Shown here one piece after another: positions 26,696 through 28,580 of a DNA stretch of 64,000 bases. Location of the stretch: the NCBI GenBank assembly GCA_018267955.1, contig JAFDXL010000009.1, forward strand, positions 1,142,717 through 1,206,716, written 5' to 3'. Each line of letters opens with the position of its first letter. Positions within the stretch are counted from its first letter, which is position 1. Made by a program: the position numbers and the translations under genes. This DNA is from Bacteroidota bacterium. GTDB lineage: Bacteria > Bacteroidota > Bacteroidia > Chitinophagales > Chitinophagaceae. A model generated the notes under the pieces. That model saw only the letters and a program-made list of their open reading frames with translations. It had not been told where the DNA came from and made no database searches.

Positions 26696-28153
26696 TTAAT
26701 ACCTGCTATTCTGGTAATCTGCTATACCATTTAAGATATTCCTGCACAGTATATCAAGCTCCTCATCATTTTGTATTATCTCCAGGTGTTTATTATTATC
26801 TATATAACCGCACTCAATTGCCATAGCCGGCATCGTAGTACCTTTTAAAACGGCAAGATGAGTTTGTCGTAACTGGGTACTAATATGCTGCCGTGACAAA
26901 CGTGCTGATATCGCAGCCGCTAAAACCCTGCTCTCATCATATTTGGGGTTTCGCTCATCTAATACCATTTCGTATTGGCTATTATCCTGTCCGGGCTCAG
27001 CAGTCTTATTTACGTGAATAGAAACAAAATAATTTGCGGCAGCCTCATTAGCCATTTCTGCGCGCTCTGGCAATGGAATGTAAGCGTCAGACATCCGGAT
27101 CGGTACCACCTGTATATTATATTCTCCCGCAATCTCGGTGAGCCTGTTGGCAATCCGCAAACTAAGGTCTTTTTCCATGATACCTCCGGCACCTAGCGCT
27201 CCTTTATCCTGCCCACCGTGCGCAGCATCTACCGCAACTATCACCTTACTGTGACAACGATTAATGGCAGTATTACTAACCTTGAAAGAAAATAAAATTA
27301 TGGAGCCCACAAGTACAGGAACTACCAGAAGCTTCCGCAGGTTATTATATTTTGATTTTTTCTTTTGATGTAGCATAAGTAATCTTCTTTTAATTGGTGA
27401 GTAAAAAAACGGATGGGTTACATCCCTGAAAGTATTGCCATAATGCGTCTGCAGCAGCATAAGGGCGAATGCTTCCGTATCGTTGTCATTTATAGCTGCT
27501 TCATCGGCTATAAACTCATGTATTTGTGATAGTTCTTTCTGAATGAGCCAGAAACACGGATTGAGCCAGAAAATGGAAGTAACCAGCTGCATACCTATTT
27601 TATCAAGACTATGCATCTGGCGTATATGTGCCAGCTCATGTTTCAATATTTGCTGTCCTTCTTTACTTTCCATCGCTATATCATTTCTCCAAAAAAGATC
27701 GCGCATAAAAGAGAAAGGTGCATTACTTAGGTCTGTTGATACCAGGTTGAACCCATCCATCCTGCTGGTTTTGTATCTAAGCTTTGCTTTATACAGGCGG
27801 GTTATATGTACCAGCATTATGGCAAGCAATACCATGCTAACCACTAAATACAGTCCTATTATCCATTGATCTTTAGAGAATGTAGCAGCACTACCGCCTG
27901 TTACTTCCTGCTCATTAAATTTCCCAGCTGTTACCTCCATCAGTTTCAACGCTGGTTGCAAAGGGTTTGCTACCGTATGAAATTCGAAATGGAGTAAGGG
28001 AATAACAAGACTAAATGCTGTAGCCGATAAGAGAAATATCCTGTTATACTGATTTAATTTCCTGTTTCGCAGGAAGAACCAATAATATCCGAGGAATAAG
28101 GCACTGCATAGCGCAGACTTTAGCAGGAAGGTAATAGCGGCAGATAACATCAT
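26696..28153 (-). CDS. BlaR1-type M56 sensor protease fused to an N-acetylmuramoyl-L-alanine amidase
   Basis: A 485-residue membrane protein joining two enzyme types. Residues 1-292 have BlaR1/MecR1 architecture: membrane segments at about 5-26, 36-56 and 97-118, then a cytoplasmic zinc protease loop with HELAH at 172-176 and the downstream HEFIADEAA (212-220) that supplies the third ligand, then a fourth span at about 276-292. Residues 300-485 are an Amidase_3 domain: AHGGQDKGA (His312), IMEKDLSLRIANRL (Glu327), YFVSIHVN (His380) and IECGYID (Glu447) are the zinc and catalytic residues. In BlaR1 topology this domain is periplasmic, where the penicillin-binding sensor normally sits. The start overlaps the repressor stop by 4 bases (ATGA). 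Likely a cell-wall sensor that signals by cleaving the repressor. Confidence 0.88.
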   Translation of the reverse strand: MMLSAAITFLLKSALCSALFLGYYWFFLRNRKLNQYNRIFLLSATAFSLVIPLLHFEFHTVANPLQPALKLMEVTAGKFNEQEVTGGSAATFSKDQWIIGLYLVVSMVLLAIMLVHITRLYKAKLRYKTSRMDGFNLVSTDLSNAPFSFMRDLFWRNDIAMESKEGQQILKHELAHIRQMHSLDKIGMQLVTSIFWLNPCFWLIQKELSQIHEFIADEAAINDNDTEAFALMLLQTHYGNTFRDVTHPFFYSPIKRRLLMLHQKKKSKYNNLRKLLVVPVLVGSIILFSFKVSNTAINRCHSKVIVAVDAAHGGQDKGALGAGGIMEKDLSLRIANRLTEIAGEYNIQVVPIRMSDAYIPLPERAEMANEAAANYFVSIHVNKTAEPGQDNSQYEMVLDERNPKYDESRVLAAAISARLSRQHISTQLRQTHLAVLKGTTMPAMAIECGYIDNNKHLEIIQNDEELDILCRNILNGIADYQNSRY

Positions 28154-28506
28154 TTCTTTTTAAATTGTTTCAGTAGTAATTCCAGGTCCTGCACAGAAAG
28201 TTTCTTTTCATCTACCAGGAATGATACCACATTACTAAAAGAGCCATCGAAGTACGATTTGGCAACACCCGTCAATGTATTTTTAGAATACGCCTCTTTA
28301 CTTACAGCCGGGTGATACCTGTGAATGCGGCCCAGGCTTTCTACTCTTACAAATTCTTTCTCCGCCAATATTTTCAGGATCGTAGCCACTGTGTTTTTAT
28401 GTGGTTGTGGTTCGGGCATCGCTTCCACTATTTCCATCAATAAACCACTGCCCAATTTCCACAATACCATCATTACCTGTTCCTCTGCTTTTGTAAGTGT
28501 CTTCAC
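28150..28506 (-). CDS. BlaI/MecI/CopY family transcriptional repressor
   Basis: A 118-residue winged-helix repressor of the BlaI/MecI family. The DNA-binding domain (about 1-70) has LTKAEEQVMMVLWKLG and HKNTVATILKILAEKEFV. The C-terminal dimerisation half (FSNVVSFLVDE, then LSVQDLELLLKQF) is where BlaR1-type proteases cut in the known systems. Translation starts at GTG 28504-28506, one base after the first operator-like repeat. It is the first gene of a two-gene operon with the M56-amidase gene, in the standard repressor-sensor arrangement. Autorepression is expected from the operator layout. Confidence 0.92.
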   Translation of the reverse strand: MKTLTKAEEQVMMVLWKLGSGLLMEIVEAMPEPQPHKNTVATILKILAEKEFVRVESLGRIHRYHPAVSKEAYSKNTLTGVAKSYFDGSFSNVVSFLVDEKKLSVQDLELLLKQFKKK

Positions 28507-28507
28507 T

Positions 28508-28525
28508 GAACTAATTATTTAGTTC
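28508..28525. promoter_or_regulatory. Operator-like inverted repeat 1 of the blaI-type promoter
   Basis: Perfect repeat GAACTAA-TTAT-TTAGTTC, between the -7 box and the GTG start and covering the predicted transcription start. Confidence 0.75.
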
Positions 28526-28555
28526 AAATGTAGAACTAAAAATTTAGTTTGCAAA
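28525..28555 (-). promoter_or_regulatory. Promoter of the blaI-type/M56-amidase operon
   Basis: Read on the minus strand, TTTG (28555-28552), a 19-base spacer and TACATTTG (28532-28525). This is a full match to the Bacteroidota TTG-N17-23-TAnnTTTG consensus and the best promoter in the window. The leader to the GTG would be about 12 nt. Confidence 0.8.
28533..28550. promoter_or_regulatory. Operator-like inverted repeat 2, inside the promoter spacer
   Basis: GAACTAA-AAAT-TTAGTTT, one base short of a perfect repeat. It fills 18 of the 19 spacer bases between the -33 and -7 elements. Confidence 0.72.
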
Positions 28556-28562
28556 TTTTATT

Positions 28563-28580
28563 GAACTATTTTTTTAGTTT
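28563..28580. promoter_or_regulatory. Operator-like inverted repeat 3, upstream of the promoter
   Basis: GAACTATTTTTTTAGTTT keeps the same half-site ends, with a weaker inner match. It lies 30 bases (centre to centre) from repeat 2 and just upstream of the -33 element. Confidence 0.6.

Follow-up and report, generated by a model that had tools for sequence, protein, structure and literature searches.

Within the window analysed here (a stretch of 64,000 nucleotides from a genome of the Chitinophagaceae), a single gene joins the membrane metalloprotease of BlaR1-type (M56) receptors to a domain of the Amidase_3 family of cell-wall amidases, directly behind a gene for a BlaI/MecI-type repressor. 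On the basis of the protease residues, the loop EL1 and the active-site patterns of the family, the best-supported account is that of a wall-ligand receptor: a BlaR1-like receptor protease with a periplasmic Amidase_3 sensor, which would signal via BlaI derepression. We give this account, taken as a whole, a probability of roughly 0.55. Systems of the BlaR1/BlaI kind are already known, and it is the M56-Amidase_3 fusion itself that is new; a literature search, with most subscription journals and bioRxiv outside its scope, returned no description of it.

Architecture of the fusion protein

Both Pfam domains of the fusion score above cut-off within one open reading frame of 485 residues (PF05569, M56, 44.3 bits against a cut-off of 31; PF01520, Amidase_3, 128 bits), the protease covering residues 1-292 and the amidase residues 306-478, with the features collected in Table 1. 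The original prediction had described just such a pairing, with an HELAH-containing, four-span protease, a complete set of amidase residues and a BlaI-type partner, and in each of these respects it stands: four spans and the BlaR1 fold are found, along with both zinc motifs (HExxH and ExxxD); the amidase zinc ligands H312, E327 and H380 and the catalytic E447 are all present; and a PF03965 repressor is encoded upstream. The penicillin-binding (class-D beta-lactamase-like) sensor is absent, its place at the C-terminus being taken by Amidase_3, and the NCBIfam model blaR1_generic gives 22 bits against a cut-off of 400. The protein thus has the tested protease-side features of an M56/BlaI system, but not the sensor that defines the beta-lactam receptors.

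By fold and residues the C-terminal domain belongs to Amidase_3, and the window member looks catalytically intact as an amidase. Its alignment to CwlV and 4rn7 is continuous, whereas that to AmiB/3ne8 falls into two pieces, such that the insert carrying the inhibitory helix seems to be absent. Homology to BlaR1 (PMC9834060) suggests an N-out/C-out orientation, which would place the amidase domain in the periplasm. The predicted structure has low pLDDT at residues 63-89, within the EL1 equivalent, and a pTM of 0.60, which leaves the domain arrangement open.

Table 1. Positions of the fusion gene, its repressor gene and associated features within the window
Feature	Position	Strand	Remarks
M56-Amidase_3 fusion gene	26696..28153	minus	485 aa; single ORF, both Pfam domains above cut-off
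M56 (BlaR1-type) metalloprotease part, four spans, residues 1-292	27278..28153	minus	
Amidase_3 domain, residues 303-485	26699..27247	minus	
EL1 equivalent (by homology), extracytoplasmic loop between spans 2/3, residues 54-93	27875..27994	minus	between hydrophobic regions 2 and 3
HELAH protease zinc motif, residues 172-176	27626..27640	minus	
E213xxxD217, third zinc ligand motif	27503..27517	minus	
HPFFYSPIKRR, residues 247-257	27383..27415	minus	candidate self-cleavage loop and RR pair
Glu447, catalytic glutamate of Amidase_3	26813..26815	minus	aligned with the Glu of five solved amidases
BlaI/MecI-type repressor, 118 aa, GTG start	28150..28506	minus	PF03965 98.1 bits against a cut-off of 22.6
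Operator-like copy 1, AACTAATTATTTAGTT	28509..28524	.	begins 3 bp from the blaI start codon
Operator-like copy 2, AACTAAAAATTTAGTT	28534..28549	.	
Operator-like copy 3, AACTATTTTTTTAGTT	28564..28579	.	

Distribution of the fusion

How widespread the fusion might be had been left by the original prediction to a search with M56 and Amidase_3 profiles. Collecting loci, we obtained 105 distinct ORFs carrying both domains, of which 83 belong to the same family as the window, the Chitinophagaceae; 79 came from a family sample, 22 from named contigs, three from a search of relatives and one from the window, and they are distinct in the sense that identical ORFs were collapsed whilst close relatives remain. 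All 29 members that were scanned match PF05569 at E<=0.001. Among named records, the fusion occurs in Flavipsychrobacter, Ferruginibacter, Lacibacter luteus and Chitinophagaceae MAGs, for instance, and also in a contig titled Flavobacterium sp. (L056). The window protein has a match at E<=1e-10 in 256 of 294 same-family genomes (many of the weaker ones, among the matches listed, cover the M56 part alone), and in at least 82 of the 294, its own genome included, a match in one frame reaches both domains.

A frameshift joining two genes had also been considered at the outset; the frame is single here and likewise in those 82 or more genomes. This recurrence, together with the named records, leads us to reject an artefact of gene fusion or assembly, for which we see practically no chance.

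In a class-wide sample of 295 genomes, seven give a match at E<=1e-40, a threshold that would miss more distant fusions, and four of these matches span both domains; three belong to the same family (one being the window's own genome) and one to another (G455, locus L279, which lies outside the main set of 105). A further remote member is found at L074. On a FastTree phylogeny covering 100 amidase domains from fusions and 60 unfused ones, the labels fused and unfused take three changes, two of them forced by well-supported branches, and so few events of fusion or loss are needed. One unfused row sits inside the fused group; it may be the second amidase gene of locus L021, and was flagged as a possible long-branch join.

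The amidase active site

Each zinc ligand is retained in 104 of the 105 fusions, the exception being a degenerate member (L071). At position 447, Glu is found in 90 and a substitute (A, Q, D, V, N, H, G or I) in 11, L006 and L025 among the Glu-less, whilst four truncated ORFs stop short of it; a smaller collection on fewer loci held 102 ORFs, again with 11 non-Glu and four not reaching the column. The four truncated ORFs and L071 were left out of the trees. In a first tree of 100 rows, which included column 447 and in which 37 of 97 inner branches are open, the ten non-Glu rows require at least nine changes; masking column 447 gives ten changes, and with the column masked and three long rows removed the remaining nine rows take eight. 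The degenerate gene itself (L071:3989-5608) encodes an M56 protein with a decayed amidase, zinc site included, and still has BlaI adjacent.

For comparison, a set of 63 stand-alone amidases was assembled, drawn for the most part from 39 relatives, 12 of which belong to other families of the order. The catalytic Glu is kept in all 44 conventional or divergent ones (L221, L222, L223 and L227 being divergent, three of them without a clean zinc or Arg column), as well as in the second copy at L021; in a short stand-alone class it is missing from 10 of 18, with Y, S or M in its stead and the zinc ligands kept. A Fisher comparison of the fusions with the 44 controls gives p 0.034, for rows that are not independent, and we place no weight on it. 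The Glu is lost in 10 of the 18 short amidases too, for which no link to M56 was seen, so its loss is not specific to receptors.

In the window's genus, Amidase_3 proteins of ~205 aa, apparently secreted (signal peptide judged by eye), often stand in tandem; short Amidase_3 loci comprise L203, L205, L206, L208, L209, L212-L216 and L226, with a copy in the window's own genome at L216:615-1229, and neither M56 nor BlaI was found in stretches of 14-15 kb around four such loci. At L021:3042-3686 and L235:6658-7302 a separate amidase of 215 aa lies directly behind the fusion, with a lipoprotein-like start (also by eye) and Gln as the first zinc ligand.

In CwlD (PMC8496864), function depends on His49, on Glu65 and on Glu199, the putative catalytic residue, yet the E199A variant binds its partner at wild-type level. 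Equating Glu447 with E199 by family motif, a Glu-less domain could plausibly bind both zinc and ligand without hydrolysis, given that CwlD E199A keeps its partner binding. As 90 of the 101 members that reach the column keep the catalytic Glu, hydrolysis is probably useful in most of them; the near-universal retention of the zinc ligands, set beside replacement of the Glu in the other 11, favours zinc-dependent binding, rather than hydrolysis, as the essential function of the family.

The original prediction had cast the amidase as a sensor triggered by ‘binding or hydrolysis’ of wall material. Its first element is strengthened by the adjacency of blaI, by the conserved palindrome described below and by the repeated loss of Glu with the zinc ligands kept; the second is narrowed: since these 11 relatives are without the catalytic Glu, binding is the more likely of the two for the family.

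Protease residues, candidate cleavage sites and EL1

On the protease side, all 105 fusions (a set that shares 104 with the main one, L279 standing in place of L061) and all 40 M56 relatives lacking an amidase have H172, E173, H176, H181, D184, E213, D217 and R257. By motif, spacing or the RR pair, H172ExxH, E213xxxD and R257 match H201ExxH, E242xxxD and R294 of S. aureus BlaR1, and the 41 residues between HExxH and ExxxD equal the distance from H201 to E242, as numbered in PMC9834060. The same paper places self-cleavage of BlaR1 at S283-F284, its RR pair at R293/R294 and cleavage of BlaI at N101-F102. By analogy, we tentatively equate residues 247-257 with the S283-F284 loop, which would make F249 (present in 102 of 105 fusions) a candidate P1' Phe of self-cleavage, and F96 a candidate P1' Phe in BlaI, where S95 is found in 97 of 100 sequences and F96 in 79, another residue occupying position 96 in the other 21.

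EL1 of S. aureus BlaR1 lies in the sensor cleft and, in the account given in PMC9834060, is thought to be displaced by beta-lactam, moving the sensor domain and span 3 and so activating the protease. The EL1 of the fusions is similar in length (mean 42 residues) and carries an acidic block in 102 of 105, as against 29 of 40 M56 proteins without an amidase, with a mean net charge of -2.0 against -0.2; this acidity is a weak signal, noticed after the fact, in a loop that aligns poorly. In autoinhibited Ami-family amidases (PMC8496864), the inhibitory helix places a Glu or Gln on the zinc and so shuts the enzyme, which makes an acidic EL1 ‘plug’ an attractive idea, and the charge of the loop hints that EL1 might act on the amidase zinc in this way.

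The operon and its palindromes

In the window the repressor and fusion genes overlap by 4 bp, and three copies of the palindrome AACTA-N6-TAGTT stand upstream of blaI. A same-strand BlaI ORF lies directly upstream in 99 of the 105 fusions. The remaining six include two at contig edges (L061, L157) and two (L152, L154) in which a second M56 gene intervenes between blaI and the fusion; at L150 and L159 no blaI was found within the ~2.4-2.5 kb upstream. In the M56 tandems of L152 and L154, which share a single blaI, the first gene is without an amidase domain and the second has one.

Within the 220 bp that precede blaI, the palindrome recurs in 95 of 99 homologous regions, and by position and conservation we regard it as a candidate BlaI operator. 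Genome-wide, the exact pattern has five sites in the window's genome, three of them before this blaI; the other two (L236, L237) fall inside long open frames, with no BlaI or M56 in the 3 kb read. A reversed control pattern has 15 sites in the same genome, against five, and so a single exact site carries little weight alone. Allowing up to one mismatch, the window holds seven sites against 2.9 expected; imperfect sites were searched in the window only, and the regulon as read here rests on exact patterns. Paired sites no more than 24 bp apart are found in 57 of 117 family genomes, with none for the reversed-pattern control, and 28 of the 30 paired-site loci read stand directly before blaI-M56, an amidase being visible within 1.5 kb in 15 of the 28. 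From these contexts, the palindrome goes with this BlaI-M56 clade, whether or not an amidase is present.

Other settings of the pair were also seen: 280 bp before a thiolase gene with neither blaI nor M56 (L241); beside a TPR-protein gene that is followed by blaI (L268:1501-2745); beside a TPR gene and a 173-aa ORF (L274:1308-2503), with no blaI or M56 in the 7 kb read; and, at L271:1993-4955, ahead of a MacB_PCD/FtsX permease gene, a possible extra target, that is followed by blaI-M56-amidase. Autoregulation seems to be the general pattern, with an extra target here and there; and with the exact palindrome elsewhere in the window's genome confined to two open frames, the circuit may mainly control itself. 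The exact-operator search of that genome gave no beta-lactamase target.

The genome of the window fusion has three further M56 genes (L228:4625-7549, L229:4401-5900), two in tandem and one with a TonB_C tail; the tail of the scanned member of the tandem pair has no Pfam match. Other BlaI-like genes lie near them, with no exact operator copy in the stretches read.

Discussion

We propose a model for how such a receptor might work. At rest, BlaI dimers on the AACTA-N6-TAGTT operators, of which there are three here, would repress the operon of blaI and the receptor-amidase gene. A peptidoglycan ligand with a stem peptide, be it exposed or newly cut wall or a soluble fragment, would fill the zinc cleft of the amidase, displacing the acidic EL1 and shifting span 3, as in BlaR1; the cytoplasmic HELAH protease would then cut BlaI (candidate bond S95-F96) and the receptor itself (candidate site near F249), and derepression would yield more receptor-amidase, in a positive autoregulatory loop. 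The essential act in this scheme would be the binding of ligand to the zinc site; domains that have the catalytic Glu, that of the window protein included, may in addition hydrolyse wall, either ending their own signal or acting as an output enzyme. The architecture, both sets of active-site residues, the gene pair, the conserved palindromes and the pattern of conservation and loss on which this model is built are direct observations, whilst the ligand, the displacement of EL1, the bonds cut, operator function and autoregulation are our extrapolation from them. A bolder version, in which capture of a wall amidase by a BlaR1-type protease founded a family of peptidoglycan receptors, with an EL1-plugged muropeptide pocket, Glu-less ‘pseudo-enzyme’ lineages and a self-contained circuit whose main target is its own operon, we offer tentatively, as an idea with the odds somewhat against it.

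The main rival is an inducible, membrane-anchored autolysin, in which the amidase is the output, its amount is controlled by the M56 part via BlaI, and sensing falls to the membrane part, to EL1 or to another protein. The full catalytic set of the window protein and the retention of Glu447 in most members would suit it, as would the confinement of exact operators to the operon and two other frames, so that induction may chiefly yield the amidase itself. Set against this are the replacement of the catalytic Glu on eight to ten occasions across the trees in a family whose zinc ligands are almost always kept, the near-constant position behind blaI, and the fact that the amidase occupies the place of the BlaR1 sensor; the recurrent loss of Glu argues against an autolysin as the general role, although not against activity of the window member, and we consider this reading unlikely, if still to be taken seriously. 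A passive wall anchor would be compatible with Glu loss, as pure binding suffices; here the amidase fold would hold or position the receptor, with the input being mechanical or arriving through other periplasmic parts, such as the additional domains of the longer members, and it is true that in 63 of the 105 fusions over 60 residues follow the amidase match (in three, 26-60) and that, among the 29 scanned, eight match TonB_C and eight match Plug. In the window protein and 38 other fusions, however, 25 residues or fewer follow the amidase, which is thus their only evident folded periplasmic domain, and a tether needs less than strict conservation of three zinc ligands; we therefore rate an anchor as improbable.

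Less probable again is an indirect receptor for beta-lactams or antibiotics in general, with drug-damaged wall as ligand and other resistance genes as targets. The operator pair ahead of the permease gene at L271 would fit such a role, but the sensor is Amidase_3 rather than a penicillin-binding domain, and the exact pattern yields no extra target in the window's genome; we think it very doubtful. The wall-ligand receptor remains the account that we prefer.

We compared that receptor with the closest known systems. With BlaR1/MecR1-BlaI/MecI (S. aureus; PDB 8exp-8ext) it shares the M56 gluzincin fold, HExxH and ExxxD motifs at equal spacing, the RR pair, a C-terminal domain after the last span, a neighbouring BlaI-type gene and upstream palindromes; it differs in its sensor, which is Amidase_3 where that of BlaR1 is class-D-beta-lactamase-like. 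The Amidase_3 wall amidases (C. difficile 4rn7, CwlV 1jwq, AmiC2 5emi, LytH 7tj4) have the same fold and the same four zinc and catalytic residues, but are not joined to a receptor protease as here, where relatives moreover replace the Glu. In other M56 proteins of the Bacteroidota, whose tails are TonB_C or of unknown kind, the protease residues are the same, and some of these proteins share the operator pair and BlaI as well, yet no amidase domain was found in them. RsiV, the lysozyme receptor of Bacillus, acts as an anti-sigma factor to which lysozyme itself binds, and it is not known to carry a protease-amidase fusion. The likeness lies in a wall-related cue that controls proteolytic release of a transcription regulator (PMC4183432).

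There is a parallel with BlaR1, in which a fold resembling that of a wall enzyme, with slow turnover, became a receptor. By what means bacteria that have no beta-lactam receptors monitor their wall is largely an open question, and for most M56/BlaI pairs outside the bla/mec systems no ligand is known. For the fusion family the sensor fold itself points to the likely class of ligand, and the natural Glu-less variants are ready-made candidates for binding-only receptors. In this protease switch the fold of a wall-cutting enzyme stands in place of a penicillin detector, which suggests a self-controlled sensor of the cell wall.
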